This document shows positions 6,001 through 37,154 of a DNA stretch of 37,154 nt, piece by piece. The stretch's first letter is position 1; the number at the start of each line of letters is the position of its first letter. This stretch comes from a virus. The notes beneath the pieces were generated by a model. It was not told the DNA's origin. It did no database searches and saw only the letters and a list, made by a program, of their open reading frames with translations. Where the stretch lies: IMG/VR virus record IMGVR_UViG_3300046742_000121, positions 1 through 37,154 of that record. One strand, written 5' to 3'. The translations under genes were made by a program, and so were the position numbers.

Positions 6001-9000
6001 AGCTGCGCTCTGATAAGTATCGGTTCGCCTTAGGTGAGCTTGAGAACTTTGACATAAGGGACGGAGTAAAGATAAAAGCAATCATGACGGATGATTCCGG
6101 CAGAGAGTATGTCGGTTCATATGAAGTTAAATTTAAAAATGGTGAAATCGAGAACAGAAAAGAGTTCATCAAGGTAAACAGGAAGACGCTAGAATTTCTC
6201 AGGAATAACAAGGAGACATATCAAACGGAACCATGGTACGACCTTATGAGGGAGCAAGCCGAAGCAGCACTCGCTTTGCCTGTGACTCAGCAATGGTCTG
6301 CAGTTAGGCGTTCCGCATGGATGGCAGGACTAGAAAGTGTTAACCAAAGGTTCTCACGACTAGGATACGAGGGTAAAAAGCTTGCAGGAATGACTGCAAG
6401 AACGGTGGCTTTATATCGTGACTTAATATCCAAGGCACAGTTCCACGCAAAAGAGTTCAATCGTGCATACGAAAATGTTCTTTCTGCATTGGATGTTGAT
6501 GGTCAAACATTTTACACTGGCATGTACCAGGAGATATTCTGGTGGTTTGATAATAATCCTCAGTATGCAGGCAATGAAGACTTAGCATTTTCTGAAATGT
6601 GGAAAGCGGTAAGGAAAAAAGCAAACTTACCTGACCGCTCTTCATTAGATGACAAGGCAAGAAGAGCAGTTCGCACCTTGGTTGAAAAAGTTATTGCCGC
6701 CCGAGACTACGAGGCACGCACGAATCGTGACCTTGGTAATCGTATCAAGGATGACGAGGTAAAGGTTCAGTCATATCTTGATGGCGAGAAAATGGTAGAC
6801 TTCTACAGAATGCCATTAGATATGGGTTACGCAACCATACCAAGGGCTGTCAACGACTCTAAGGTTCTATCGTTAGTGGAGTACATGACTCACGAAGATA
6901 GGGGTGAGTACCGATGGGACGGTTCTGCAGGATCGATGCCCGTAGACGAAATGATTCGCGCTCTACAAAGACAGGGCGAAAGGGAGGAGATAGGTAATGA
7001 ACTAACTAAACTCTTCAGCGAAGAAGTAGTAATTAGATTCATGGAGCCTTTTATTAATGCAGGAAGCAGGAAGAGTCAGTTCTATGGCCCTGCAGATGCA
7101 GATGGATGGGGTGCCGAACTAAGTAATGAATTTGTAGCGTCCCAATGGGAGGCATCAGGCAGGAAGTTAGTGCCATTTCTTGATAGACTCTACAATAGCC
7201 TGTCGACTACCGCAGAGCGTGGGGATGATAAAAAGCGGGGCGACTGGTATGTATCTTTTTACTCACAAATGCACGCCCGATTTAGGGAACTCAATAGAAC
7301 TGCCCGACACATAAACTCAAAGGCAGAGGGAGAGACAAGGGAGTCGGAAGCAATGAAGCACACTCCTCGTTCGCTTGATGGCAGGCAAGTAGAAGCAAGG
7401 TTGCCCAAAGAGTTTTTCCTCTACGACATGTATGATGAGACAAGCACTAGCATTCGGATGGCAATGTTTGCAGGTGCATCCGTATTCGGCCGGGACGGAA
7501 CAAAGGCAACAGAAGCATTTGCCGAAGGCAGGAAGTCATTAAGGAAATCCTTCGACCTCCTAGCGTCTGTTATATCAACTGTTACTGGACAACCGCCAAG
7601 TAAACCTGAGGGCAGTTACCCAAATGCTATTAAAAGAAAAGCATACGCCGAGCTTAAGCGACTTGGGCATAGTAACCCAGCAGAGAAGTTTAAGAAAATA
7701 CACAATGAAGCTGTGGCGTACGGAGAACTTCGCACGACTTTTCAGCATCTGCGTAAATATTATGGCAGTAACAATGAGGCTGGACCATACAAGGATGCTC
7801 GCTTTTTGCTCGAGCTACTTGGAACGCAATCTCTTGCAGTGCTAAACAATCCTAAGTCTTCATTCATGCAAGGCATGTCCTTGTTTGAGTTTCCATTGGC
7901 ATTCCGCGGAGCAAACAAAATGGCACTCAAGGGTACGGCGAAAGCATTAGGCAACTTCGTGAACCAAACATTTGGTGGAATGGCAGAAGCGATGGGCATA
8001 CAAATGGACAGGGTTGGTAATCATGCCGCCAATCTTAATAGCACACATTTTCGTATCGAGGAGATGGCGCTTCCATTGCGTGACTATATTACGCAAGTAG
8101 GTTCAGGCGGAGAGTTGACAGACAAAACAAACATGAAGCGATACCTCCGTATCCTTCAGGATATTTCCACCCACCATAAAGCAAGAGGGACAAGAGCACC
8201 CATTGATTTGTCCACCCTTGTTACTGGAATCTTTCCTTATGTAAATAATGTGGTCAACCACTCGGTAGGTGTTGGTGCAATGTATGTTTACCAGGACTTA
8301 GTCCTTAAGGTTGCTAAGCACATAGAGAACAACGGACTGACTGACGCAGAGTTTACTGAGATAACTGCGGAAGATATGGGGTTAGGTCAGAGCTCAATGG
8401 AGTGGATTGTTGGAGAGAAAGATGGATATACAAATGCAAACAACATGCTTATTGAAGCAGGTGCTCCATCAATTACGCGACTTGCTTACGATTATATCGA
8501 CCGCAAAGCAAGTAACCCAAAGGCCGAGGTCATTAAGTACGACACTGGTCTTTTGATAAACCAAGTAGCCATGAACAATATGGCTGGTGAAGGATTTAAT
8601 TCCAAGCCTGCCTGGTTGTACACGAATCCAATAATGAAGTACTTTGCTTTCTTCTTGGGTTGGCCGTTGGGTAAAGTAGCTAGGGATAACAGATTTATAT
8701 TCCGAGGGGATACAGATTCAGTAAATACATATGCAGCGTTCATTAAGTATCTGGGTTTGATGTCAGCGATTTATCTTCCTGTTGGTTTATCTTTCGCCTT
8801 TATGATTGATTGGTATGACGAGGAAGTGTTGGGCAAACCTAACAATCTCCCGCCAATCACACCATGGGCTGCTATTCCTGTAGTGGGTCCATTCGTCGCT
8901 GCCTCTGATAAGAACTTTTCTTTGTACGGACTAACTTCACGAATGGCAAAAGCGGGTACTCCATACGGAATGGGTTTTGACCTCATGAACTCAATCATGG

Positions 9001-11812: not shown

Positions 11813-11957
11813 GAAGTCGGAAGACGCATACTGGAGAGACCTCAAGAAATCAATTGACGAGGGACATAAGTACTTTTGGAAAAAAAGAGGTCTTATGTCT
11901 CCTCCCTCAACTTCATACAATACAGATTTCAGGAAGATTGGTCGTAAATCTCAGTAG
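11790..11957 (+). CDS. 55-aa basic protein, convergent with the integrase
   Basis: An ATG at 11790 overlaps the end of the acidic protein and opens a 55-codon frame (MKRARKNKKSEDAYWRDLKK... to ...KIGRKSQ). It has the tiny, Lys-rich character of this block. Its 3' end overlaps the 3' end of the integrase on the other strand by 29 bases, so the + strand array and the - strand array meet tail to tail with no room for a terminator between them. No homolog recognised. Confidence 0.55.
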   Translation: MKRARKNKKSEDAYWRDLKKSIDEGHKYFWKKRGLMSPPSTSYNTDFRKIGRKSQ

Positions 11958-12978
11958 TCTTTGTATCTGAGTGACCCACCCAAGTCGCAATATCCTCGAG
12001 CGATTTGCCTGACTTCTTGCATCTTGTAACAAACGCTCTTCTGAATGAATGGAATCGCTTGCCGTCTTCGAATGCTTTCGGATGCTTTCGTTTTAATTCA
12101 CGAGCAAAATAGGTAGGGAGTGTTGCTCTAGCCTTTTCATCATTGCTCAGCCAATTCCACTTAGGGAAGCAATACTTCTCATCATCTGGTTCGATACGGG
12201 CGATTGTGTCTCTGAGTATTCCTCCACCAATTAGTGGGTCATCATAGGGTAGGGCAACCCTAGTGTCAGTTTTCACGGTGTGTACGATTAGGTTGTCTTC
12301 CGAGAATGAATCCCACTCCATCTGTGCAATATCCGACATCCTGAGACCTGTCCACCACGCGAAGTCTGCCGCTATACTCCAGAAGTAAGAGCAGTTCTTC
12401 CTGATTATATCATAGTCTTCTTCCGTGAAAGGAACCTTTTTCTTGGGCTCTTTCTGTTTAACACTGAGCTTTGATTTATCTACGACAATACCATAGGTCG
12501 GGTCCTTCATTATGTATCCGTTGGCAATTGCGAAACTTATTACCCCTCTGATTGCAGTTATTTGTTTCCTCTTGTGGTTTAATGATGCCTTATTGTCTTT
12601 GTTTACCGTAGCAAATATCTGCTCCTTCGTAATGTCATCTACATTTGCATCTAGGAGATTATTCTCTTCCAGGAAAGAATTTACTATAGTTTCCTCCGAA
12701 TATATCGAGTGTACCGAATGAGACTTTAGCTCCCTGAATCTTTTATACTCCGCTTGCACATCTGCGATAGACATAATCCCCCCCGTGACAAGTGCGATTG
12801 TATCTTTCGTGAGCGCATTTGCCTTGGCGGCCATCTCTATTTTCTCAATCTTAGCCTCCTTTACGAGGACTGACGCTTCTGCCTTTGACTTTGTCTTTAG
12901 GGAGCGCGTGATAGTTTTGCCCTCCCTGCCCACAAAGCTTACTGAGTAGAAGCCTGCTTTTGTTTTGAATAACTTCAT
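11929..12978 (-). CDS. int: Tyrosine recombinase (phage integrase)
   Basis: A 349-aa protein with the full catalytic set: Arg213 in TGLRMSDI, Lys236 in HTVKTDTR, His310 and Arg313 in FHSFRRAF, His336 in WVGHSDTKTT and Tyr345 in EIYDQ. The N-terminal 170 residues hold an arm-binding-like region and a SAM-like core-binding domain. Known role: site-specific integration and excision. It ends four residues after the nucleophile, unusually close to its C-terminus. It is the last gene of the long - strand array. No attachment core could be recognised beside it; the only tRNA lies 19 kb away. Enzyme family very sure; activity and site unknown. Confidence 0.93.
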   Translation of the reverse strand: MKLFKTKAGFYSVSFVGREGKTITRSLKTKSKAEASVLVKEAKIEKIEMAAKANALTKDTIALVTGGIMSIADVQAEYKRFRELKSHSVHSIYSEETIVNSFLEENNLLDANVDDITKEQIFATVNKDNKASLNHKRKQITAIRGVISFAIANGYIMKDPTYGIVVDKSKLSVKQKEPKKKVPFTEEDYDIIRKNCSYFWSIAADFAWWTGLRMSDIAQMEWDSFSEDNLIVHTVKTDTRVALPYDDPLIGGGILRDTIARIEPDDEKYCFPKWNWLSNDEKARATLPTYFARELKRKHPKAFEDGKRFHSFRRAFVTRCKKSGKSLEDIATWVGHSDTKTTEIYDQSS

Positions 12979-21828: not shown

Positions 21829-22001
21829 TGCTCCTCCTTAACTATTTTAATTTCGTATGGTATAGGCATTGTTTGCTCAGAGCCTGATACCCTAATGGTT
21901 ATGGGAAGATTCCCATTCCATTTCACATGCTTGCGTGCATCATAGAGTAGTTCTTCTAGCTCTTGAACACACAGCTGTACTGTTATCTCTGTAGTCTTCA
22001 T
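21819..22001 (-). CDS. Unknown 60-aa protein
   Basis: A small gene coupled at both ends: its start overlaps the DpdA-like stop (ATGA) and its end overlaps the next start. The product has a helix (VQELEELLYDARKHVK) and strands (PITIRVSG, IPYEIKIV). It could be a small partner of either neighbour. No family recognised. Confidence 0.6.
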   Translation of the reverse strand: MKTTEITVQLCVQELEELLYDARKHVKWNGNLPITIRVSGSEQTMPIPYEIKIVKEEQWD

Positions 22002-22870
22002 AATAAATTTGTTTGTACATTATTGTGGATGATTGAATGCCCGAACCTACGGGCTGACTTAATCCTTCTGCGAGATGTACGCTTCTTGCCTGCCATGCGG
22101 TCAGCAAAATCATAAGCAAACGAGTCAGCAGAATAGATTCTGTCTTTGATGTTAGCCTGTGCTAACCCTGTCTTCTTGAATCCAAACAGATGTATCTTTG
22201 CATTGCTCGGTAGGAGTGAGATGACTGCATCTAGTATCTGAGACACAACCTCTGGATTCGTGTTGCGCTTGCAAGTAGAACCAATGCCTATCCATGGGCG
22301 ATTCACTGCAATAGGCGAACCATCTGCGATACGATGATGAAACGCATGAGGCCATAAATTATGATTAGGTATACCAGTGCTTGTGTAGAATGTACGCCTT
22401 TGCTGCTCAAAGTGTAGCATGCTTCTGTACATATAGAAGTGGTCGACATAGTCATCGACCTCCCAACCTTGCAGGACGGGCATGACCGGAACCTTGAGAC
22501 CCTGCTTTATGCCTTCGTCTACTATTTGTATATACCGCTTAACTGTCTTGCGTTGATGGATACGGACAGATGCTTGCCTGCCTTGTGACTGCAGTTCTGC
22601 AATAACACTAGGCTCACACATATAGTCCTGCGTGGCGATACAAGCTAACATCCCTGCATCTTGAAAGCGTACGGCTAAGCGTACGTAATCGGCAGGGGAT
22701 TGCACGAAATCACCGAACTTTGTTACTTGTGTGAATGCACCACTATCCAACATCCACCTCCCAACACTAGGGGGAGATTTCCTCCCCCGTAGTGCATAAG
22801 CGGATAGCATGGCTCCATCTAATTGATGTGCCTCGCTGAATCGGTCAGTACCTGTGAAGTATTCCTTCAT
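21998..22870 (-). CDS. DpdA-like DNA deazaguanine transglycosylase (TGT fold)
   Basis: A 290-aa protein with the TGT/DpdA barrel motifs in order: LDSGAF at residues 41-46 (catalytic Asp region), QDYMCEP at 81-87, RIHQRKTV, VMPVLQGW at 130-136, WIGIGSTCKR at 193-202, IHLFGFKKTG near 226-235, and SADSFAYD. Known role of DpdA: exchange guanine in DNA for a 7-deazaguanine base, protecting phage or genomic-island DNA from restriction. No preQ0 synthesis genes (queC, queD, queE, folE) are in the window, so the base would come from the host or from genes elsewhere. The C-terminal tail is basic (KKRTSRRRIKSARR), suitable for DNA contact. Family call fairly sure; the base made is unknown. Confidence 0.75.
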   Translation of the reverse strand: MKEYFTGTDRFSEAHQLDGAMLSAYALRGRKSPPSVGRWMLDSGAFTQVTKFGDFVQSPADYVRLAVRFQDAGMLACIATQDYMCEPSVIAELQSQGRQASVRIHQRKTVKRYIQIVDEGIKQGLKVPVMPVLQGWEVDDYVDHFYMYRSMLHFEQQRRTFYTSTGIPNHNLWPHAFHHRIADGSPIAVNRPWIGIGSTCKRNTNPEVVSQILDAVISLLPSNAKIHLFGFKKTGLAQANIKDRIYSADSFAYDFADRMAGKKRTSRRRIKSARRFGHSIIHNNVQTNLL

Positions 22871-25008: not shown

Positions 25009-25232
25009 TAATCAAGTAGGATATTGTATTCACTCTCAAGGTACTCTTTGGCATCTTTCATAGTAGCCTCGCATTCCTTGATTGTTTCAAGGCATCCGTC
25101 TCGGTCTGCTTTTGCATTATTGTAACGCTTGGTATGCTCCAAGATGTCGCTACGCATTGCATTAGCAGTTGGTTCCGGTGGCGTGTCACCCATGGGATGA
25201 GCAATGGGCCCAGTATAGCTTCCTAGCTTCAA
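25008..25232 (-). CDS. Unknown 74-aa protein
   Basis: Begins with a Gly/Pro-rich stretch (MKLGSYTGPIAHPMGDTPPE) and continues as a charged helix with two Cys (GCLETIKECEATMKDAKEYL). TAATG and ATGA-type overlaps at its two ends support it. No family recognised. Confidence 0.55.
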   Translation of the reverse strand: MKLGSYTGPIAHPMGDTPPEPTANAMRSDILEHTKRYNNAKADRDGCLETIKECEATMKDAKEYLESEYNILLD

Positions 25233-25420
25233 TGCACTTCCTCCGCGTGATAGATGTCATCATCTTTATCCGTTGGCCATTCGTATTGCTTGTCCACATT
25301 GGGACCACTTGGACCATTCTGTTCTTTATTTATTTGCTGACACACCTCGTTGTGGGTGAGTTCAGCAATCTCCTCCTCCGATTTACTCGGAAGAGGGATG
25401 TACTTATCGTTATTATTCAC
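25229..25420 (-). CDS. Unknown 63-aa hydrophilic protein
   Basis: A very polar, probably disordered protein (MNNNDKYIPLPSKSEEEIAE; NGPSGPNVDKQYEWPTDKDD). It is coupled to the DnaA-like gene before it by ATGA. No family recognised. Confidence 0.5.
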   Translation of the reverse strand: MNNNDKYIPLPSKSEEEIAELTHNEVCQQINKEQNGPSGPNVDKQYEWPTDKDDDIYHAEEVH

Positions 25421-25755
25421 TGACAGTTACCATAGGGCATATATGCCGATGGAATTTCTTTAGTAGGTATTGCTGCGAGTTTATCTTCGAGGTAGTCAAT
25501 AGACTCTTCAACCTGCTTATAGACATCAATCAGTCCTGAAATGACATTGTGTCCATGAATTATTGATGTGTAGTGCCGCGCGAACTTTTCGCCAATTTCC
25601 TCAAGGGACAAATCGGGTAGCATTTCTCGCGAGAGATACATTGCAACCATCCTAGGAAACGCAATTCGAGCATGTCGTTTCCTGCTTAGCATATCAGTCA
25701 CTTTACATCCGTAGTAGTCGCCTACAATTTGTTGGATATCTTCTATTTTATTTAT
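25417..25755 (-). CDS. Stand-alone DnaA domain IV protein, probable AUA start
   Basis: The frame matches the C-terminal DNA-binding domain of DnaA throughout: IEDIQQIVGDYYGCKVTDML, SRKRHARIAFPRMVAMYLSR, then LSLEEIGEKF and RHYTSIIHG, the last corresponding to the DHTTVLHA recognition helix. This homology begins upstream of the first usual start (GTG at 25701). The frame opens right after the ligase stop at 25777-25779 and has no ATG, GTG or TTG before 25701. An ATA at 25755-25753 lies eight bases after AAAGG, so AUA initiation giving about 112 aa is my best model. The AAA+ domain of DnaA is absent. It could bind phage origin boxes or compete with host DnaA (inference). The altered recognition helix suggests a changed site. 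Confidence 0.8.
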   Translation of the reverse strand: MNKIEDIQQIVGDYYGCKVTDMLSRKRHARIAFPRMVAMYLSREMLPDLSLEEIGEKFARHYTSIIHGHNVISGLIDVYKQVEESIDYLEDKLAAIPTKEIPSAYMPYGNCQ

Positions 25756-25776
25756 GAGACCCGCCTTTCTATTATT

Positions 25777-26442
25777 CTATTCGTACCTAACCTTCACCCA
25801 GTGTGGGGTGTCTTTATTATTCCAGAGGTAGGTGTGATTTACTTTTTTGAGAACTACACCTTCAAAAGGGTAGTCGTCCGTGGTTTCGTTTATTATCTTC
25901 ATGTCACGATACAGTTCCCCGTATGTCCTGACGCCTGCTTGTGAGGGCAGGGCACAAATGTCATACTCGAAGTGCGACATGTGTGCGGGCTGACATGGCA
26001 AGGTCGACTTGATAATCAAGTGCCTTAGTCCATACGGGGTTGGTGTCTCGCCGAAGCTACGAGTTTCATTGTTCGCATCTCTGTATGTACCTAGGTCTCG
26101 TCGTCCCATTGTGTACATATTGGGCACATCTAGCAGAGCACATTTGCCTGCGTTTGGCCCTGTGGGAAGATATTCTATATCAAACACCCTCTCACCAAAG
26201 AGGAACCTTAGTTCTTTATATATATCTCCAAGCTTTTCTTGGAAATCTCTTTGATATATTTTACCGTGGCGATTGAACGCCATACCATGTGAAAGAATCA
26301 CACGGTCACCATCGAGCTTAGCTTGCTCAATCCAATCACCCTTCAGGTTTTTGAATGTAAGCTCCGACCCCGCCACTGGACGCTCAGGCGTGCCAGGGCA
26401 AAGGTTGTGCTGCTCAATGTCTAGTTCTGACATTTTACTCAT
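25777..26442 (-). CDS. Minimal ATP-dependent DNA/RNA ligase (nucleotidyltransferase domain only)
   Basis: A 221-aa protein with the covalent nucleotidyltransferase motifs: I AKLDGDR with Lys42, Ia AFNRHGKI, III VFDIE with Glu90, IV FEGVVLKK at 193-200, and V HWVKVR at 214-219. It ends straight after motif V, so the OB-fold domain that normally completes a DNA ligase is missing. A separate OB-fold partner or an RNA-ligase-like role is possible. Known role: seal nicks via an enzyme-AMP intermediate. It is followed in the same frame by the DnaA-IV gene. The catalytic domain call is sure, the substrate open. Confidence 0.82.
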   Translation of the reverse strand: MSKMSELDIEQHNLCPGTPERPVAGSELTFKNLKGDWIEQAKLDGDRVILSHGMAFNRHGKIYQRDFQEKLGDIYKELRFLFGERVFDIEYLPTGPNAGKCALLDVPNMYTMGRRDLGTYRDANNETRSFGETPTPYGLRHLIIKSTLPCQPAHMSHFEYDICALPSQAGVRTYGELYRDMKIINETTDDYPFEGVVLKKVNHTYLWNNKDTPHWVKVRYE

Positions 26443-29189: not shown

Positions 29190-29560
29190 CGTTGTATCCC
29201 TAAGAACTCGTATGGGCATCCGCTGGACCAATCCCATGTAGCTAGTAGAATATTTGCCTCACGACGCTTATTGCGTGGCTTGCGACCGCCATTGCGAAAG
29301 CCACGATTGTTGAAAACTCGACGCCGGTTCCACTCCGCGCCTAGCTGTACTCCCCACTCTTTGTTGCGGTTGGCAGGTATTCCATAGTATCTGCCCGTTG
29401 CATACTTGCATGGGCGAGGTCGTTCCATTGGTTCAGTGACGGGCATGTCATCAAACCTGTCGAGTTTGGGTTCAAGGCTGGCGATAACATCACCATATCT
29501 TTCTTCCACGAATTTTAGTGTGCGTCCCGTGATAACGCGTTCTTTCTTTGTTATTTTCAT
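29186..29560 (-). CDS. Unknown 124-aa basic protein
   Basis: A basic protein with an Arg/Asn-rich centre (WNRRRVFNNRGFRNGGRKP) that looks disordered and RNA- or DNA-binding, flanked by ordered ends (RTLKFVEERYGDVIASLEP; LLATWDWSSGCPYEFLG). It lies two genes downstream of the large structured RNA. No family recognised; an RNA-binding partner is speculation. Confidence 0.58.
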   Translation of the reverse strand: MKITKKERVITGRTLKFVEERYGDVIASLEPKLDRFDDMPVTEPMERPRPCKYATGRYYGIPANRNKEWGVQLGAEWNRRRVFNNRGFRNGGRKPRNKRREANILLATWDWSSGCPYEFLGIQR

Positions 29561-29561
29561 A

Positions 29562-29756
29562 TTAGCATCCTGTGGGCATCCCTTGGCGGTTATGAGCCGA
29601 TTTCAGCGCCACATCCTTACTTGTTGGTGGTCGATGGGATAGCACAGTCTTGTATGTTGGACTATGCTTCCCGTTAGGTACTAGGACGGTTGTCCTGTAC
29701 TTCGGTAGTGGACCATTGAGAATGTCTGCAACGGTCGCTTTGTCTTTCCGTTTCAT
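29562..29756 (-). CDS. Unknown 64-aa protein, first gene after the structured RNA
   Basis: The ATG at 29756 (MKRKDKATVADILNGPLPKY) is preferred. A GTG 21 bases upstream lies inside a long hairpin belonging to the structured RNA. No good ribosome-binding site is seen. The sequence is basic with a Pro/Ser-rich second half (KTVLSHRPPTSKDVALKSA). The short distance (7 bases) from the RNA's last hairpin to this start suggests that the RNA and mRNA share a transcript or are separated by processing. Confidence 0.5.
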   Translation of the reverse strand: MKRKDKATVADILNGPLPKYRTTVLVPNGKHSPTYKTVLSHRPPTSKDVALKSAHNRQGMPTGC

Positions 29757-29763
29757 AAATATT

Positions 29764-29796
29764 GCCACATCGTACACCGAATGGCGTACGTGTGGC
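29764..29796 (-). ncRNA. Long terminal hairpin of the structured RNA
   Basis: On the - strand GCCACA pairs with TGTGGC and, inside a one-base bulge, CGTACGCC pairs with GGTGTACG around an ATTC loop: 14 pairs including one G-U. It is followed by AATATTT rather than a strong T-run, so it is a better 3' boundary or processing stem than an intrinsic terminator. It ends seven bases before the next gene's ATG. Confidence 0.65.
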
Positions 29797-29899
29797 GCAC
29801 CTCAACCATGACCTCGGCCATGGCACTAAGTGAGGAGAGTAAGAAACTGTTAGCTCATTATCTTTTAACATAGGTCAACCAGTAGTCTCTGGCATCATG

Positions 29900-30072
29900 T
29901 CTGGGTGGTATTTCACTGACGGCTCGTTCCAACAGGACCATTACGGCCTGTAACACAACCTGAATTGTGCCTTCATTGCCTCCCACCTATTCTACGCATA
30001 CGACATCCCATCTAAGGGAGTTGAGTGAGTCTCATCATACTCACGGGCTAGAATTGACCTATGGGGTCTACC
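29900..30072 (-). ncRNA. 23S rRNA L1-stalk-like module (domain V, about helices 74-79)
   Basis: Read from the - strand, three segments occur in 23S order. First, GGTAGACCCCATAGGTC at the 5' end (complement of 30056-30072), like GGAAAGACCCCGTGAACC just before the stalk. Second, GCGTAGAATAGGTGGGAGGC (complement of 29978-29997), like GTGTAGGATAGGTGGGAGGC. Third, GAGCCGTCAGTGAAATACC then ACCC (complement of 29903-29925), like GAGCCGACCTTGAAATACC then ACCC. By eye against the E. coli sequence I remember, the second segment with its flanks agrees at about 25 of 30 positions and the third at about 23 of 31. GGUGG and CCACC, and GGC and GCC, can pair as in the stalk. The stalk tip is replaced by two hairpins (CACAA/TTGTG and ACAGG/CCTGT). 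In ribosomes this region binds protein uL1. Confidence 0.8.
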
Positions 30073-31083
30073 GAATGGTGCATGAGCATACACCAATGGG
30101 TAGAGTTACCCTTACATGCTTCAACTCATACGATAATATGAGCAGGTTTTGTTTATATACCTTGAGCGATTCATCCTAACTAAAGGACAAGGTGTGACTA
30201 ATGTCGGTCATTACCAAGATACGCGAGTTTTATGCCGATATACAGGCAGGTCAGTTTCGTACCCAAGGATACTTGGTAAATTCCAGTAACATTCCGCTTA
30301 GCATGCTAGCGGTACACCTTCGCAAGACTGTGGCGTTCCTTCATCAAGGCTTCCAAGTTATTAGAATAACTATGCTCGTCACCAAAAGCGGTGAGTCGTG
30401 AAGGTATTTCACCTGGACGGCGCGGAGTTTATGCTCCTACGGGCTCGTCTTGCGTTTTTGTATAGCGATTGGCTCCCACATTGCAGGGATTTCACACCTT
30501 GGTATGGTGCTACGTACGTTGGTAAACCCTGACCAACCGCTCGAAAACAACCGAAACATTTCCTCTGGGGAAGACATACAAACATCCACTAAGCCAATAC
30601 CCTATACAGCTATATACAGAAGTAATGCTAACCCATAATACCTAGAACATGGTAAGGTAAGAGAGAAACAAACAATAATAACACGTCTTATCAACATACC
30701 ACTGATGTATCTGCATATGTACCAAAGTAACTCCAACGGGTCATCCCAAGGAGCTAAGCGTCAACCAAACGACACAAGAACACAATAGGGTCCACCCAAT
30801 TACATCATTACATATGCACAGTGATAGCAAGGCACTTTACGCAATGCCAAAGCGAATAAAGATTGCTTGGTAGGTCAAAGCACAACCCATACATAAATGC
30901 ATGGCATCGAACAATGACAACGCAACCAAAACGCGCGTTCAAGCTAGAATCATGAATGACACCGATTCGCAGGCGTCACCCCAAGAGGCATGAAACGATT
31001 GACAATTCTCAAAAGCAAATAATCACATACTACTTTGATACTTACGCGCCAATTCCACCGTGATAGCAGACAGCGAGTGAATC

Positions 31084-31118
31084 CTTGACGCGCGAAAAAA
31101 AAGTTTCGTTTCGTCAAG
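31084..31118. repeat. Inverted repeat CTTGACG...CGTCAAG
   Basis: CTTGACG (31084-31090) and CGTCAAG (31112-31118) are perfect complements. Inside them CGAAA and TTTCG also pair around an A-rich loop, forming a long cruciform-capable hairpin. Neither strand has a terminator-like T-run after the stem. Confidence 0.6.
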
Positions 31119-31133
31119 TGAGTATTCGCAACC

Positions 31134-31156
31134 CTTACAAGCAAAAAACTTGTAAG
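31134..31156. repeat. Inverted repeat CTTACAAG...CTTGTAAG
   Basis: CTTACAAG (31134-31141) and CTTGTAAG (31149-31156) are perfect eight-base complements around CAAAAAA. The stem is AT-rich and lacks a following T-run on either strand, so a protein-binding or origin element is more likely than a terminator. Confidence 0.6.
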
Positions 31157-31195
31157 ATTGAGAAAGTCTAAACTCTATAGATAGATGACTCATTG

Positions 31196-31212
31196 CAAGC
31201 TTTGCAAGCTTG
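31196..31212. repeat. Palindrome CAAGCTT-TGC-AAGCTTG
   Basis: CAAGCTT (31196-31202) and AAGCTTG (31206-31212) are perfect complements around a three-base centre. The size and spacing suit a dimeric repressor operator. Confidence 0.5.
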
Positions 31213-31260
31213 TCTGATTGCATCTATAGCAAGTTATATATGGTAGACATTTGAAAGGGT

Positions 31261-31361
31261 TTGTTTACATTTCTATTGCATCGCAACCGCCAATAATTGG
31301 CGCGTCGAAATCAATTTACTTTGTCAAATATTGTTTACGCATCGCAACGCATCGCAACCGC
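31261..31361. repeat. Iteron-like repeats TTGTTTAC and GCATCGCAAC(CGC)
   Basis: On the + strand TTGTTTAC occurs at 31261-31268 and 31331-31338. GCATCGCAAC occurs at 31278-31287, 31339-31348 and 31349-31358, the first and last extended to GCATCGCAACCGC. A related TGTTTAC lies at 31821-31827 in front of the 31791 gene. TTGTTTACA shares six of nine positions with the DnaA box TTATCCACA, so these may be sites for the phage DnaA domain IV protein. Operators are an alternative. Confidence 0.5.
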
Positions 31362-31417
31362 TTGCAATATTCCAAATTATCAAATGTCCTTTGAAAGAAC
31401 ATAAATTGATTTAACCC

Positions 31418-31453
31418 AAAAAAAACCCTACCGCTCGAAATTGAGCGGTAGGG
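31418..31453 (-). terminator. Rho-independent terminator of the 31468-31791 gene
   Basis: A perfect 11-bp stem (CCCTACCGCTC/GAGCGGTAGGG, 31426-31436 and 31443-31453) with a six-base loop is followed on the - strand by eight Ts (31418-31425). It lies 15 bases after the stop of the upstream gene and separates that gene's transcript from the structured-RNA region. Confidence 0.92.
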
Positions 31454-31467
31454 CATAAGACCAAAAT

Positions 31468-31791
31468 TTAGCGGTAGGTATCGGAACCAAGAGAAGATTT
31501 AACTTTCACTCTTCCCGCCCGATTTCTCAATTCAACGATTTGAGTCTCCTTGACTGAAATAATACCATTGGAAGTATTACCATTTTTAGACTCGCCAATG
31601 AGATTATTTAACAATGAAGATTTAACTTCTTTGTTCTTTTCCATATCGGCAATCATTTCGAGTGCTTTCATTGGCACTTTACCATTGTCTAGTAAACCGC
31701 TGATTTTACGCTCTCCTTGTGCATTGACTGACAAAGTGAGCGTAAGGGTTTGGGATACCGCTTTTGGTGTTTCTTGTATTACTTGTGGCAT
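31468..31791 (-). CDS. Unknown 107-aa protein in its own transcription unit
   Basis: The ATG at 31791 is chosen because AAGGAG lies nine bases upstream. A longer in-frame version starting at 31851 would run through the leader. The product (MPQVIQETPKAVSQTLTLTL; GERKISGLLDNGKVPMKALE; ELRNRAGRVKVKSSLGSDTY) is Ser/Thr/Lys-rich with short strands and helices. No family recognised. A strong ribosome-binding site, its own intrinsic terminator and isolation from other genes suggest a highly expressed early or regulatory protein. The leader contains one copy of the TGTTTAC motif found in the neighbouring repeat region, perhaps an operator. Confidence 0.7.
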   Translation of the reverse strand: MPQVIQETPKAVSQTLTLTLSVNAQGERKISGLLDNGKVPMKALEMIADMEKNKEVKSSLLNNLIGESKNGNTSNGIISVKETQIVELRNRAGRVKVKSSLGSDTYR

Positions 31792-31883
31792 AATATTGTA
31801 CTCCTTATTTTTTGGGTTAATGTTTACACCATAGCAAACCCTTACAAACAAGCGGTTTGTTACTAACTAGGGATGCAGTAACA

Positions 31884-31900
31884 CCCCCCCCTTTGGGGGG
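31884..31900. repeat. C8-TTT-G6 hairpin in divergent spacer
   Basis: Eight Cs (31884-31891), TTT and six Gs (31895-31900) form a very GC-rich hairpin between the 31791 gene and the tRNA. No T-run follows. It might be a structural element or transcription barrier; nothing identifies it. Confidence 0.45.
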
Positions 31901-31979
31901 AACGGGATTATCGCCATCCACCATAATATACACCTTTTCTCAAGTTTCCATGGATTTGGAAATTGCCTAAACTACAAAA

Positions 31980-32007
31980 TTGCGGTGGGAATATGATTTT
32001 GTACAAA
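31980..32007 (+). promoter_or_regulatory. Putative promoter of the tRNA gene
   Basis: TTGCGG (31980-31985), a 16-base spacer and TACAAA (32002-32007) lie directly before the tRNA, placing initiation close to its first base. Both boxes are imperfect, so confidence is modest. Confidence 0.35.
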
Positions 32008-32012
32008 AAAAT

Positions 32013-32088
32013 GCCATCGTAGCTCAGTTGGTAGAGCATTCCACTCGTAATGGAAAGGTCACCGGTTCGATTCCGGTCGATGGCTCCA
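32013..32088 (+). tRNA. tRNA-Thr (anticodon CGU)
   Basis: A full cloverleaf: acceptor GCCATCG/CGATGGC, D-arm GCTC/GAGC with AGTTGGTA loop, anticodon arm TTCCA/TGGAA with loop CTCGTAA (anticodon CGT, reading ACG), variable AGGTC, and T-arm ACCGG/CCGGT with TTCGATT. Discriminator T and an encoded CCA end at 32088. It looks functional. It may adjust codon supply for the phage. Its distance from the integrase makes it an unlikely attachment site in this map. Confidence 0.95.
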
Positions 32089-32154
32089 TTGAAAAACTAA
32101 AGTTGTGCTTTAGATTTGCAAGGTGTGATACTAGAATTAAGTAGTAACAACTCA

Positions 32155-32183
32155 TTGACTATTGGTTTTTAAGGACTTAGAAT
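32155..32183 (+). promoter_or_regulatory. Putative sigma70 promoter for the 32193 operon
   Basis: TTGACT (32155-32160), a 17-base spacer and TAGAAT (32178-32183) are close to consensus. Initiation would fall near 32190, only about three bases before the GTG of the cupin-like gene, so the first gene would be leaderless or start further in. Confidence 0.55.
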
Positions 32184-32192
32184 GTAAATAGT

Positions 32193-32699
32193 GTGGCTGA
32201 GCTAGCAGAGAAACCTAGATATTCACTTCAGGGGAGACCTGAGGTCAGAGAAGCTATGTCTCAACTGGAAAAGCACTGGGAGCAGGGGGAGCATGTGAAG
32301 GGTGACGAGTGGGTGCAGGTTGTGGATGGAGGCTTAGAGCATCAATTTATCAACGGGCTGTATGTGCGAATGGTAAGATTGCCCGCTGGAATGACCTTCA
32401 CAACAAAGATACATAAGAAGAAACATCCATTTTTTTTGATGTCGGGAAGATGTCGTGTAATCACGGATAAAGGATTCGAGATAATGGAGGGTCCGATGAT
32501 GGGAGTTACGGAACCAGGCACAAAAAGGCTTATGTATATTGAGGAGGAGGTTGTGTGGTACACAGTTCACCGGACAGATAAGACGAATCCGCAGGATGTG
32601 GAGGAAGAAGTCATAGCAAAAAATTTTTTAGAAGTGGAAGAAGGGGGCATAATGCATGAACCCACCCACCATATAACAGAAAGAACAGGAGAAAAGTAA
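32193..32699 (+). CDS. Cupin-like phage protein
   Basis: A 168-aa protein from GTG. The middle (GLYVRMVRLPAGMTFTTKIH, KKKHPFFLMSGRCRVIT, then GTKRLMYIEEEVVWYTVH) is a small beta-barrel of cupin type: the 'LPAG..FTTKIHKKKHPFFLMSG' hairpin and the later 'E...WYTVH' provide possible metal-binding His and Glu. Such cupin proteins are frequent in tailed-phage morphogenesis regions with unknown roles. No ribosome-binding site precedes the GTG. An in-frame ATG 21 codons later is an alternative start. Its stop overlaps the next start (TAATG). Confidence 0.65.
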   Translation: MAELAEKPRYSLQGRPEVREAMSQLEKHWEQGEHVKGDEWVQVVDGGLEHQFINGLYVRMVRLPAGMTFTTKIHKKKHPFFLMSGRCRVITDKGFEIMEGPMMGVTEPGTKRLMYIEEEVVWYTVHRTDKTNPQDVEEEVIAKNFLEVEEGGIMHEPTHHITERTGEK

Positions 32700-33640
32700 T
32701 GGCATTTGTAGCAGTATTACCAACAGCAGGAACGATTTTAGGCGGATTAGGGGCAGCAGCCTCTGCAATACCAGTAATTGGTAGTGTCGCAGCACCCGTA
32801 TTGGGTGGGTTAGGTGGAGCAGCCACCGCACTTGGTGCGGGAAACCTCATGGGTGCAGCATCTTCTCTTGGGAGTGGTATACTTGGTGGTGGTGCTGGAC
32901 TACTCGCAGGTGCAGATAAGTTAGTTGGAGGATTCCTTCCTAATGTAGTAGGGGGAATGATTACTCCACAACAAGGATTTTTAGGACATGGAGATAAAGC
33001 ATTACTAGGCGGGGCAGGGTTAGGTCTACTTGGTGGCCCTGGACAATTTCTCGGTGGACCCGCCGTGGCAGGAGCAGTACCCGCAGGTATAGCTGGAGCA
33101 GTTGGTGGAGGAGTGCCAGTCGCAGGGGGAGTTCCAGGTGCAGTACCTGTTGGAGTTGCCGGAGCAGTTGGTGGTGGAATACCCGCTAACATTGCTGAGC
33201 CTGCTGGTGGAATAGAAGGATTTTTAGGAAATGTGAAACAGAAGGTAGACCCAATACTTGACCCAGTCACAAAGGTAGGGGTAGGAGCAGGGCAAGTAAT
33301 GGATGTTTATAATAAGATAACAGGTAATGATGGTGGTCCAATGCCAGGAACCAATCAAACACCTGCTCAAGCAGCACAGAATCCACAGTATAATCCATAT
33401 GTCCCCACAACTAAGGCACAACCTGTTGCAATCCCTGTTAATGTAGGAGCAGCCGCAGGGGGTGGCCCAACAAGTATGGCAGTGCCCACTCAGCAAGTTG
33501 GTGGGGTTCCCGTGGCTTCTTATGTGCCTATGCAGGTCGAAAAAACCGAGGATGAGAAGGAAGAGGAGATTGAAGAGCTAAAGAATATGTTAGCTATGCA
33601 AGGAAACTTCCTTTCCGGTGTAGTAAATCGTACGGCATGA
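32699..33640 (+). CDS. Gly/Ala/Pro-rich hydrophobic protein, likely virion or membrane-active
   Basis: A 313-aa protein. Residues 1-170 are low-complexity Gly/Ala/Val/Pro (GGLGAAASAIPVIGSVAAPV; AVGGGVPVAGGVPGAVPVG), with repeated blocks 'VAGAVGGG(V/I)P' near the middle encoded by imperfect DNA repeats. A charged middle (VKQKVDPILDPVTKVGVGAG), a Pro/Gln-rich part and a C-terminal acidic coil (KTEDEKEEEIEELKNML) follow. This resembles membrane-penetrating or tail-channel-associated phage proteins, as inference only. Coupled on both sides by TAATG and ATGA. Confidence 0.65.
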   Translation: MAFVAVLPTAGTILGGLGAAASAIPVIGSVAAPVLGGLGGAATALGAGNLMGAASSLGSGILGGGAGLLAGADKLVGGFLPNVVGGMITPQQGFLGHGDKALLGGAGLGLLGGPGQFLGGPAVAGAVPAGIAGAVGGGVPVAGGVPGAVPVGVAGAVGGGIPANIAEPAGGIEGFLGNVKQKVDPILDPVTKVGVGAGQVMDVYNKITGNDGGPMPGTNQTPAQAAQNPQYNPYVPTTKAQPVAIPVNVGAAAGGGPTSMAVPTQQVGGVPVASYVPMQVEKTEDEKEEEIEELKNMLAMQGNFLSGVVNRTA

Positions 33641-33951
33641 TTTCACGAAAAAGATTCTCTCAGTGGATAAAGATATTGTATGGTGGCAATGTTCGCCTAC
33701 CTGAATGGATAAAAATAATTCGAGCAAGCTTACGCTTGCTCATTAATGGACAGGTAACTCGTCCTATTTGGAGGGCGAGGATGAAAGCATGTATGGCGTG
33801 CCCAATATATGATGTGACGAGTAAACGATGTCGCCCGCAGGAAAATTTATCAATGGGGTGTGGATGCTATGCTCCGTACCTTGCTTTGGTTAAAGAAAAC
33901 AACTGCTGGGGAAAAAAAGAATTTGGAGATAACTTCGGATGGAAAATATAA
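33637..33951 (+). CDS. Small Cys-rich, probably zinc-binding protein
   Basis: A 104-aa basic protein. Cys occur as CMACPIYDVTSKRC and GCGCYAPY, then NCWG, a spacing suited to one or two zinc sites. The first half is basic and amphipathic (EWIKIIRASLRLLINGQV). This CxxCP...C...CGC pattern is common in small phage proteins near virion genes, of unknown role. Starts inside the previous stop (ATGA). Confidence 0.7.
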   Translation: MISRKRFSQWIKILYGGNVRLPEWIKIIRASLRLLINGQVTRPIWRARMKACMACPIYDVTSKRCRPQENLSMGCGCYAPYLALVKENNCWGKKEFGDNFGWKI

Positions 33952-34112
33952 GTAATAACAATCGCCTCAAAAAGGAACTGCAAGCAGAGCAGAATATACT
34001 CAAAGCAGACTACGAGTATCTTCTGAACCGCGAAAAGAAGCTAGTGAGCGAGAAGCAACTCTTGCTCGACAAGCTACTTAAGCTTAAAGCAGTTCTCTCT
34101 GAAGCGAAATAA
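33939..34112 (+). CDS. 57-aa coiled-coil protein
   Basis: An ATG overlapping the Cys-rich gene by 13 bases opens a 57-codon frame whose product is an almost continuous charged helix (NNRLKKELQAEQNILKADYE; KLVSEKQLLLDKLLKLKAVL) with clear Leu heptads. Its stop is directly before the next GTG. It could be a small oligomeric partner or an Rz-like spacer; nothing further can be said. Confidence 0.65.
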   Translation: MENISNNNRLKKELQAEQNILKADYEYLLNREKKLVSEKQLLLDKLLKLKAVLSEAK

Positions 34113-34385
34113 GTGAATATAGAGCACTTAGAAGCTCGCCGCTATTTAGTGACGAGTCTAAGCAACTCTGACAATATTCATTTAGCTGACCTCGACGAAT
34201 ATGATGGTTTCGGGGAGTGTAGCTGTGAATATTGGCACTTTAATCTTGGTCCTAAGCTGAAGCTTGGTCAGCGTCCTTTTCGCTCTTGTCGTCACCTTCG
34301 GGCTGCTCGGGACTTTGAGAGGCGAATCGAGAGGCAAAATAAATCTCAAGACCAGCAAAGCAAAGAGCACCAAGTGCGTCACTAA
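34113..34385 (+). CDS. SWIM-type zinc finger-like protein
   Basis: GTG directly follows the coiled-coil stop. The 90-aa product has GECSCEYWHFNLGPKL, then FRSCRHLRAARD: the CxC...CxH arrangement of SWIM-type zinc fingers. The C-terminus is basic and polar (QNKSQDQQSKEHQVRH). Its last 134 bases overlap a coding frame on the opposite strand (34252-34485), so the C-terminal tail may be constrained by that gene. Confidence 0.6.
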   Translation: MNIEHLEARRYLVTSLSNSDNIHLADLDEYDGFGECSCEYWHFNLGPKLKLGQRPFRSCRHLRAARDFERRIERQNKSQDQQSKEHQVRH

Positions 34386-34485
34386 GCTTTACTTTCTCAT
34401 CTTTGTCCCCGTGCTGAAGGACTGTGCGGAGAATTTCATCCGCAAGTGCGTTATCGTTTTTGGTGGGTTTTGTTTTTTCTGTCAT
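34252..34485 (-). CDS. Unknown 77-aa acidic protein
   Basis: Coupled to the HNH gene by ATGA. The product has a helical, alanine-rich centre (KLSDALGALCFAGLEIYFAS) and a disordered acidic tail (PEQPEGDDKSEKDADQASA). It is the last gene of the right-hand - strand block and overlaps the + strand SWIM-like gene tail to tail by 134 bases. No family recognised. Confidence 0.55.
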   Translation of the reverse strand: MTEKTKPTKNDNALADEILRTVLQHGDKDEKVKLSDALGALCFAGLEIYFASRFASQSPEQPEGDDKSEKDADQASA

Positions 34486-34763
34486 ATTAAATAATTGTTT
34501 GCTCTAGCCCATGATGGGTTTTCGTGAATATTTGTGTGGCATTTGCGACACACACTTAACCAGGTATCTACCTCTAAATAGTTCTTTCCTCTCTTGTCCT
34601 TATGGTGAACATCGGTTGCTTTTCTCTTGGTACACACTTCACAGATTGGGAGCTTCTCGAGAAACTCCTTTCTTAGCTTCATGTATTCCTTTGCCTCCTT
34701 TGCTCTTTTTTGACTTACCCTTCGCAAGGGAGTCTTCCTCTTCAATGGTTGCCGCCTTTTCAT
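34482..34763 (-). CDS. HNH endonuclease
   Basis: A 93-aa protein with the small-phage HNH plan: basic start (MKRRQPLKRKTPLRRVSQKR), LPICEVCTKRKATDVHHKDK with the first zinc Cys pair and catalytic HH, then WLSVCRKCHTNIHENPSWAR with the second Cys pair and the last His. Known relatives nick DNA near cos sites or act with terminase, or are homing nucleases. Its start lies 125 bases inside the 3' part of the dNMP kinase gene, in another frame, which is unusual. Confidence 0.8.
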   Translation of the reverse strand: MKRRQPLKRKTPLRRVSQKRAKEAKEYMKLRKEFLEKLPICEVCTKRKATDVHHKDKRGKNYLEVDTWLSVCRKCHTNIHENPSWARANNYLI

Positions 34764-35259
34764 TCAAGTTTACCTCCTTGGTAATTAGTTCTTTGCTTAT
34801 CCCTGCTTCTGATATGTGACCATCCTGACCACCAACACCATCCCGAGAAAGGTTCCACACCTCACCGCCTAGGTCTAAAATCATTTTTGCTTCGTTATCG
34901 AACCTTACGTCATCAATGATGAAAATCTGAGAATCTGATTCTTCTATCCTATGCCTAGCTAGATTTACCCATATATCATTGGAAATAGTATTTCTTCCCC
35001 ACTCCGTACCCAATGTCTGGAGGCAGTGTCTAGCAGACACCCCTAAGTGTGGGATTATTCTTTCCTTATCATGCTTGATATAGTCTTCGTGAACGATGCA
35101 CCCGAGCATCTCTTTGAGTGGGGTAGCAAAACTCATTACCCGCACGATTGAATCTAATCCCTCTTGGTAGTATTCAAAGACCAATTGATTAGCAAAAGTT
35201 GATTTCCCCACACCCTTGGGACCCGCCAATCCTACTATTCGCTTATGCACAGAACTCAT
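34639..35259 (-). CDS. Deoxynucleoside monophosphate kinase
   Basis: A 206-aa P-loop kinase: GPKGVGKST at residues 13-21, SFATPLKEML (the dNMP-binding lid region), LQTLGTEWGRNTISNDIWV, IIDDVRFDNEA (Walker B and base recognition) and QDGHISEAG. This order is that of T4 gp1-type phage dNMP kinases, which supply dNDPs for phage DNA synthesis. The last 40 residues (SLAKGKSKKSKGGKGIHEAK) are low-complexity and encoded over the HNH gene's start, suggesting a C-terminal extension created by the overlap. Confidence 0.82.
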   Translation of the reverse strand: MSSVHKRIVGLAGPKGVGKSTFANQLVFEYYQEGLDSIVRVMSFATPLKEMLGCIVHEDYIKHDKERIIPHLGVSARHCLQTLGTEWGRNTISNDIWVNLARHRIEESDSQIFIIDDVRFDNEAKMILDLGGEVWNLSRDGVGGQDGHISEAGISKELITKEVNLNEKAATIEEEDSLAKGKSKKSKGGKGIHEAKKGVSREAPNL

Positions 35260-35809
35260 ACTTTAATATGTTATGTACTTCTAGCTCATCCTTTGCCGAG
35301 AAGTCCTCTTCCATGAATTGCCTTCTCCTCCTTGCGATGTTCCTGTCGACCTCGTAGTCGAATAGTTTTGTTTCACACAAGCAATCGAGTGGTACGCATA
35401 TCATTCGCGTCCTACCGCCATCTCCTCCACCAACAACCCATGCCCTGCCTTGAGCAAGCAAATGCATCAGCATAAACCTGAGTTGTTCAACAGGCCAAAT
35501 CCTCATGCCCTGTGTTCGCCACTTTGTTCTTACTGGCTCATCAGGGTCACTTATCACACATTCTTTAGTCAGAACATTACACCACCAAGTAGCCTTAGTG
35601 ATTAGTAATCCTGTCCTTATGAACCCATCGGGAGAGCTAGGGTCAACTCGCATATATTCAAATACCAAATTGCCCTTCTTGCTCCACATCCTATCCGCCT
35701 TGACTTCCACGGACCCCTCTCCCTCGAAGATGCGACATAACTGTTTTTCAAGTTCGCCACCAAATTCGAGGTCGAGGTCGAAATTCGACTTTTCAGGGGT
35801 CCTTGGCAT
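35243..35809 (-). CDS. PD-(D/E)XK nuclease-like protein
   Basis: A 188-aa protein. Glu residues in FGGELEKQL, then VEVKADRMW followed by KKGNLVFEY give the 'E...D/EVK.D...GN...E' signature of small phage PD-(D/E)XK proteins. A WWCNVL strand pair and a basic C-terminal helix (RNIARRRRQFMEEDF) follow. It lies between SSB and the dNMP kinase, where phage recombination exonucleases or Holliday resolvases are often found. Start and stop overlap the neighbours. Activity and substrate unknown. Confidence 0.6.
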   Translation of the reverse strand: MPRTPEKSNFDLDLEFGGELEKQLCRIFEGEGSVEVKADRMWSKKGNLVFEYMRVDPSSPDGFIRTGLLITKATWWCNVLTKECVISDPDEPVRTKWRTQGMRIWPVEQLRFMLMHLLAQGRAWVVGGGDGGRTRMICVPLDCLCETKLFDYEVDRNIARRRRQFMEEDFSAKDELEVHNILKYEFCA

Positions 35810-36150
35810 CAGTAAGGTTCTTCCTCGGATGAATCCTTAGAACCACCCACAAAACGGAATTTCTCCATTCTTAAGCGAGTGGCGGTAATTTTGTCTCCGC
35901 TCTTTCCTTCGTACTGCTCAGTACTCATGGATGCGAAGATAAGCAAGGGTTCCCCCTTTTTTACCTTAGATAGTGCTGCTTGGTTTTTCTCATTCCAAAC
36001 ATCCACATTATAGAAGGACGCGTGCTCCCCGTTCTTCCGGCGTTCATTTACTGCAACTCGGAGTTTCATCACTTGTCCACCTGAGGTATTGGTTACCTCT
36101 GGGTCAGCGACTACTCGTCCGAGGATGGTTACTTCGGCTGTTCCTAGCAT
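35809..36150 (-). CDS. ssb: Single-stranded DNA-binding protein
   Basis: The ATG at 36150 (MLGTAEVTILGRVVADPEVT) is chosen because AGGATA lies just upstream and the SSB homology begins there; a longer frame would overlap DnaB by over 100 bases. The OB-fold features are clear: NTSGGQVMKLRVAVNERR, FYNVDVWNEKNQAALSKVKK, GEPLLIFASM and GDKITATRLRMEKFRFV. The tail is short and acidic and ends SEEEPY, like the protein-interaction tip of bacterial SSBs (Pro then an aromatic). It protects ssDNA and likely contacts DnaB or the clamp loader. Adjacent to DnaB. Confidence 0.92.
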   Translation of the reverse strand: MLGTAEVTILGRVVADPEVTNTSGGQVMKLRVAVNERRKNGEHASFYNVDVWNEKNQAALSKVKKGEPLLIFASMSTEQYEGKSGDKITATRLRMEKFRFVGGSKDSSEEEPY

Positions 36151-36154
36151 ATCG

Positions 36155-37153
36155 TTATATCCTGTTTTGAGTTTTCTCAATGAAGTCGGATTGTGTTGCA
36201 GGTTTTGCATCACCCCCATTGAGTCTTGGTTGAACCTGCTCAACAAATCGCTGAGTCTTACGGTCAAATTTTATCTTGTCCCGAGAGTGTCCTGAGCGTC
36301 CGAATCTATTCTTCGCTACAATGACTGCACATTTCTCAGGGTCATCTCCTAGTATTTCTCTATGAAGTAGAATTACAGAATCTGCATCCTGCTCAATCGC
36401 ACCCGATTCACGAAGGTTGTGCATTCCTGGTTCTGTCTTGGACTTCTCAGATTCACGATTTAACTGACAGACAAGAAAGACTACGCATTCTAATTCTTTG
36501 GCGATTATCTTACATGTACGAGATATGTGAGCTACCTGTTGCTCTCTTGGCATCCCTTTGTCATCAGGAGTTAGCAATCCAACATAATCAACTACTACTG
36601 CATCAAGGGAGCCTCGACGCTTTATTAGCTTACATGCTGACCTGACTCTTGCGATGCTTTGGGAGGAGTCATCATCCACATAGATTGGCAACTTAGCTAT
36701 ATTGCTTAGTCCACTCTTTAGAAGCTCCCTGTCTGCCTCAGTGTCGAATCCTGATGCAAACTTAGATAAGTCTACTCCTGAATCTATGGCTGCGATTTTT
36801 TTCCATAACTGGTCAGCAGACATCTCAAGTGAAAAGATGGCGGTTGTTTTACCCTTTTTCCCTGCATGATATGCAAAGTTCATTGCTAGGGTTGTTTTCC
36901 CCACCGATGGACGGGCTGCCACAATTACCAATTGTCCGGCACGGAACCCACCATCCAACACTCCATTTAGCCAAGGCAAATGTGTTACAATGGATGCCCC
37001 TCCTTGCTTTCTTTCTTCCTCAATTCGCAGGGCGGTGTATTCGGTGAGTTCCTGTGCCGAACGCATGGTGCGCTCCTTCAAGTCCATCAGCTGATTGATT
37101 TTATTATCAATCATGATGCAGATTTGCTTCGGGTCGGTAGCACCATTTGCATC
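36155..37153 (-). CDS. dnaB: DnaB-type replicative helicase, N-terminus outside window
   Basis: The frame is open to the right edge (residues DANGATDPKQICI precede the Met at 37114), so only the linker and C-terminal RecA-like domain are seen. Counting from that Met: ARPSVGKTT at 67-75 (Walker A), FSLEMSA, VVVDYVGLL (Walker B), VVFLVCQLNRESE (motif H3), and RESGAIEQDADSVILLHRE with the arginine finger region after it. Known role: 5'-3' replicative helicase at the fork. A short low-complexity tail (QPRLNGGDAKPATQSDFIEK) ends it. SSB follows. Very sure. Confidence 0.92.
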   Translation of the reverse strand, partial: DANGATDPKQICIMIDNKINQLMDLKERTMRSAQELTEYTALRIEEERKQGGASIVTHLPWLNGVLDGGFRAGQLVIVAARPSVGKTTLAMNFAYHAGKKGKTTAIFSLEMSADQLWKKIAAIDSGVDLSKFASGFDTEADRELLKSGLSNIAKLPIYVDDDSSQSIARVRSACKLIKRRGSLDAVVVDYVGLLTPDDKGMPREQQVAHISRTCKIIAKELECVVFLVCQLNRESEKSKTEPGMHNLRESGAIEQDADSVILLHREILGDDPEKCAVIVAKNRFGRSGHSRDKIKFDRKTQRFVEQVQPRLNGGDAKPATQSDFIEKTQNRI

Positions 37154-37154
37154 C

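Follow-up and report, generated by a model that had tools for sequence, protein, structure and literature searches.

Where does the translation of a gene begin if its only conserved domain opens upstream of any canonical start codon? This question is raised by a DnaA domain IV (DnaA-IV) gene in the virus record IMGVR_UViG_3300046742_000121, a single metagenomic contig of 37,154 bases, called the window here. On the minus strand, an uninterrupted frame of 119 codons runs from 25,776 to 25,417; it is the same frame as that of a ligase-like gene upstream. The first-pass annotation had given the gene as 25417-25779; its frame was right, but 25,777-25,779 is the stop codon of the ligase-like gene, so that the gene would span 25,417-25,755 if the AUA at 25,755 (AUA25755) is used. 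The features of the locus are listed below.

25777 to 26442, minus strand: ligase-like gene upstream of and in frame with the DnaA-IV gene, stop codon TAG at 25777-25779; possible source of coupled ribosomes
25761 to 25767, minus strand: Shine-Dalgarno (SD)-like AAGGCGG, six of the seven bases of AAGGAGG, 5-nt spacer to AUA25755
25753 to 25755, minus strand: AUA, putative start codon, from SD ΔG, MFE and its location three codons ahead of the domain
25417 to 25755, minus strand: proposed DnaA-IV coding sequence, 112 aa (MNKIEDIQQIV...), from AUA25755 to TGA at 25417-25419
25744 to 25746, minus strand: second in-frame AUA, alternative start with a long SD spacing of 14 nt
25702 to 25746, minus strand: helix 1 segment of domain IV (IEDIQQIVGDYYGCK), coding, 5' of the first canonical start
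25699 to 25701, minus strand: GTG, first canonical start (GTG25701); its product would be 94 aa without helix 1
25229 to 25420, minus strand: downstream 63-aa open reading frame (ORF), whose start overlaps the stop of the DnaA-IV gene in GTGA

The ligase-like gene is 61% identical to L080/L081, and its C-terminal match to PF01068 scored 21.9 bits, under the cut-off of 26.2. Its TAG is directly followed by the codons AAT AAT AGA AAG GCG GGT CTC ATA(25,755), and the frame continues with AAT AAA ATA(25,746) GAA GAT ATC CAA CAA ATT GTA GGC GAC TAC TAC GGA TGT AAA GTG(25,701). Indeed, no ATG, GTG or TTG precedes GTG25701 in this frame, and the 8-base spacing described before (AAAGG CGGGTCTC ATA) was found as well. 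The full frame matched the Pfam family Bac_DnaA_C (PF08299) with 77.2 bits (curated cut-off, 31.5) across the whole domain, from codon 11 onwards and over positions 1-68 of the 69 in the profile (77.4 bits for the proposed coding sequence). The GTG-started protein scored 57.8 bits and matched positions 17-68. The upstream codons therefore contribute 19.4 bits, in line with the earlier claim that the homology extends 18 codons 5' of the GTG, though 15 of these 18 codons belong to the homology proper. The alignment of homologs that the first-pass annotation had proposed as a check was also made. The closest phage homolog, L083/L079, whose virus has a DnaB 88% identical to that of the window, contains the upstream segment with an ATG 5 to 6 codons before the domain, and both this homolog and Verrucomicrobial DnaA align through the segment. 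Homologs without the upstream residues, which would have spoken against the first-pass reading, were thus not what the alignment showed. A canonical start lies ahead of the domain in 34 of 35 aligned loci, the window being the sole exception. Helix 1 of the window is 47 to 53% identical to L083 and Verrucomicrobial DnaA, compared with 49 to 56% for the rest of the domain. Helix 1 is thus about as well conserved as the other parts of the domain despite the long branch of the window (1.23, versus 0.66 for L083), so that its translation has probably persisted along most of this branch; a very recent loss of the start is possible. As judged from the sequence comparisons, the upstream helix is coding.

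The other two frames were inspected at the start region, and their stops were found close together with no start codon between them; thus, neither a frameshift from an upstream start nor a single-indel error rescues a start, and the frameshift was ruled out. Reassignment of TAG was ruled out, too, because other genes in the window end in TAG.

The gene product is a complete stand-alone DnaA domain IV with a short tail. An AlphaFold model started at the AUA reached a pLDDT of 93.1 and a pTM of 0.87, compared with 87.0 and 0.76 for the GTG-truncated protein. In a Foldseek comparison, the best structural match of the predicted model was E. coli DnaA-IV bound to DnaA-box DNA (1j1v; rmsd, 0.7; TM, 0.80/0.95). 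When tested as a full-length DnaA, the protein scored 78.6 bits against the NCBIfam DnaA cut-off of 343.9, and neither the AAA+ domain III nor domain I of an initiator was found in the open frame of 119 codons. Without an AAA+ domain, the product cannot serve as an initiator or unwind an origin alone. Stand-alone DnaA-IV proteins had been considered rare, but they are common in viral contigs: of the 58 DnaA-IV loci retrieved from such contigs, most are of the stand-alone kind, and the fold also occurs in GafA-type regulators. Phage records gave no nucleotide match, and their protein matches were mostly full-length DnaA, apparently bacterial sequence; few publications on phage DnaA-IV were found in the literature.

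Where, then, do ribosomes start? AUA25755 stood up as the best candidate with respect to SD strength, spacing, absence of structure and position. Its AAGGCGG has a predicted SD energy of -7.6 kcal/mol, compared with -3.5 kcal/mol at GTG25701 and -2.3 kcal/mol for the median gene of the window, and about 6% of background positions reach this value. The 16S 3' end in the probable host group, GGATCACCTCCTTTC, has the canonical anti-SD. Taken alone, the SD is modest evidence for the AUA start, several near-cognate codons being in reach. Several confident-looking genes of the phage have no SD at all. The region from -25 to +15 of AUA25755 has an MFE of 0.0 kcal/mol, to which 2.8% of background positions get, and the GTG25701 start region is more structured (-4.1 kcal/mol). 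Moreover, the position of AUA25755 matches the starts of the homologs. In searches with the gene, its alignments and the ligase as queries, no close strain and no contig other than the window was found to cover the DnaA-IV start, so that the AUA is seen in the window alone. Because of this single contig, and because a lost start and a long branch would also fit a decaying gene, we put the probability that translation initiates at AUA25755 at about one half. AUA-driven expression of the gene would probably be weak.

The fact that ATA is one change from ATG, together with the single metagenomic contig, the ATG of the close phage homolog and the canonical starts in all 34 comparison homologs, could mean that AUA25755 stands in place of an ATG, through a sequence error, a rare variant or a very recent mutation, and that the gene is normally AUG started. 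There is no direct sign of an error, the start-less alternative frames leave nothing for a single indel to restore, and the start regions of the window and the relative cannot be aligned; we consider this unlikely. If GTG25701, the sole canonical start codon, were used instead, a 94-aa domain IV would be made from a weak SD-like GGAT at a usable spacing, and GTG and TTG starts are indeed seen in neighboring genes. However, this product would lose a helix of the fold that is conserved like the rest of the domain, and the lower model confidence and the more structured start region also speak against the GTG, which makes its use as the start rather improbable. Three further near-cognate codons in the frame, AUA25746, AUC25737 and AUU25728, lie before or inside helix 1 and might be used alone or together with AUA25755; with SD spacings of at least 14 nt, and with the later ones cutting into the helix, their use is very doubtful.

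The gene could also have lost its start on arriving behind the ligase-like gene and be decaying, either untranslated or non-functional. The missing canonical start, the long branch, contact residues that depart from a nearly invariant pattern (see below), a gene order unlike that of the relative and a related contig (G054) without a domain IV match would fit such a decay. In contrast, the frame is intact up to its GTGA overlap with the next gene, the core is intact, and substitutions in conserved columns are confined to the DNA contacts, so that we regard decay as quite unlikely. Last, readthrough of the UAG would yield a ligase-DnaA-IV fusion, as the two genes share a frame with 25 sense codons between the stop and GTG25701. 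Yet the ligase has a conserved end (VRYE/VRYK), 2 kb separate the two genes in the relative, and the phage uses TAG as the stop codon of other genes; a fusion is hardly credible.

Verrucomicrobial DnaA, the DnaA of the host group, is the likely source of the domain. In the tree, the window and L083 form a clade (97/88) that is sister to the Verrucomicrobial DnaA of the host family (90/77); since the tree comprises 97 columns and its bootstrap was not settled, a host origin can be called likely but not proven. The phage itself probably infects marine Verrucomicrobia, as suggested by its tRNA-Thr(CGT) at 32013-32088, which is identical in two marine Verrucomicrobia single-cell genomes (L084 and L085), the only genomes that contain the 30-base tRNA search string. 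A tyrosine integrase is encoded at 11929-12978; together with the tRNA-Thr, it provides a probable host link and a possible attachment site. The window protein shares the whole fold with Verrucomicrobial and other bacterial DnaA-IV (1j1v, 3pvp and 8btg) and is 43 to 46% identical to host-family DnaA, but unlike bacterial DnaA, it has no domains I to III, no canonical start and one residue fewer before the recognition helix. It resembles the stand-alone DnaA-IV proteins of phages and prophages (L009-L066 and L083) in being a single domain of about 110 to 250 aa on a viral contig. However, the 34 aligned members have an ATG, GTG or TTG ahead of the domain and an H at position 434, and the window has neither.

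Among 23 well-conserved columns, the window is substituted at four, Q408M, D433H, H434Y and T436S, the H at 434 being present in 34 of 34 other sequences. All four are at or beside DNA contacts, and the hydrophobic core is intact; for Q408 and T436, the assignment as contact or neighboring positions follows the general background on the E. coli structure. The window and bacterial DnaA-IV have R399, T435 and H439 in common. The residues known to contact the bases of the DnaA box are R399, P423, D433, H434, T435 and H439 (PMC7561715); of these, the window changes the other three (P423E, D433H and H434Y), and the host group has Q at position 423. Such an altered recognition helix fits a new specificity or a relaxed constraint. 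With D433H and H434Y, binding to ordinary DnaA boxes is unlikely, and by the same residues, competition for the DnaA boxes of the host is less likely. In host-family Verrucomicrobial DnaA (L087 and L090), the recognition helix has RDHGT in place of RDHTT.

Does the window contain a DNA target for the protein? DnaA boxes are not enriched in it (TTWTNCACA, 3 found versus 4.1 expected). Repeats of GCATCGCAAC at 31,278, 31,339 and 31,349 exceed chance. They were not found clustered in the loci of the relatives checked, and a similar CATCACAACGCA in L074 sits within a gene; the 31.3-kb repeats were therefore dropped as a conserved target. The first-pass annotation had suggested an in vitro binding assay with the repeats at 31,261-31,361; we found no support for such binding, since these repeats are not common to the relatives checked. 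That a host DnaA domain was turned into a regulator with a new specificity for the origin-like GCATCGCAAC repeats of the phage at 31.3 kb, at a dose kept low and sensitive to initiation factors by the AUA, is a long shot. The surrounding region, 29560-31468, spans about 1.9 kb next to the early gene cluster, has no long ORFs and is origin-like; its AT-rich part at 31,001-31,450 contains three GCATCGCAAC and two TTGCAAGCT, and a terminator-like hairpin lies at 31,426-31,453.

Taking initiation at AUA25755 as the preferred reading, we propose that in this phage lineage, the DnaA-IV gene lies directly behind the ligase-like gene without the canonical start of the relative and is most likely translated from the AUA at a reduced level. 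Initiation would be aided by the strong SD and the unstructured AU-rich mRNA and also by ribosomes that terminate 22 nt away, on the ligase-like gene. At a low dose, the protein would most likely regulate phage DNA by sequence-specific binding, and the sequence it recognizes would be a changed one.

AUA starts had been regarded as rarer still than stand-alone DnaA-IV proteins, but precedents exist: infC, ccpN and citZ of S. aureus start with AUA behind an extended SD, ccpN encodes an HTH repressor, and AUA reporters gave roughly 10 to 30% of AUG expression (PMC13009471). The window resembles these genes in combining an AUA with a strong SD; their starts were mapped experimentally, whereas that of the window is predicted and lies in a phage. 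Regulation of phage DNA at a low dose is the best-fitting role by analogy with GafA, whose DnaA-like domain is the DNA-binding domain of a transcription activator among the regulators of phage-derived gene transfer agents; in Hyphomicrobiales, gafA is split, with a separate small DnaA-like gene (PMC9638019). By description, the N-terminal domain of GafA and the small gene before split gafA are DnaA-IV-like domains used apart from DnaA, as in the window. We found no sigma-like or omega-binding partner in the window protein, and none was identified beside its gene, where the uncharacterized ORFs gave no Pfam match. The REP-associated transposases of subclass 2.1, with a C-terminal Bac_DnaA_C, are a further case of reuse of domain IV by a mobile element, apparently without DnaA-box targets (PMC6006769). 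There, domain IV is fused to a HuH nuclease, but the window gene has no nuclease.

Both features thus have precedents, and it is the pairing of a DnaA-IV gene with a probable AUA start that is unusual. The probable Verrucomicrobia host, the grouping of the DnaA-IV with Verrucomicrobial DnaA and the changed recognition helix are new. Gene callers that accept only ATG, GTG and TTG would truncate or miss the protein, dropping a helix of its sole domain. If AUA initiation is real, the gene would be a phage counterpart of infC and ccpN, for which this strategy is otherwise documented. The altered recognition helix offers a defined test of the viral repurposing of DnaA domain IV.

Some further observations were made in the window. 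Other contigs are 95% identical to it across 31,877-37,154 and diverge abruptly at 31,877 (L067 13904), which is a module or recombination boundary. An ORF at 21-9704 encodes 3,227 aa and takes up a quarter of the contig, and a queuine tRNA-ribosyltransferase-like gene (phrog_1279) at 21998-22870 is also present in the relative L079. Finally, an SSB ORF that begins with TTG shares more than 100 bases with the end of the DnaB gene (35809-36267 and 36155-37114); since the SSB match starts at residue 45, the true SSB start may be internal.
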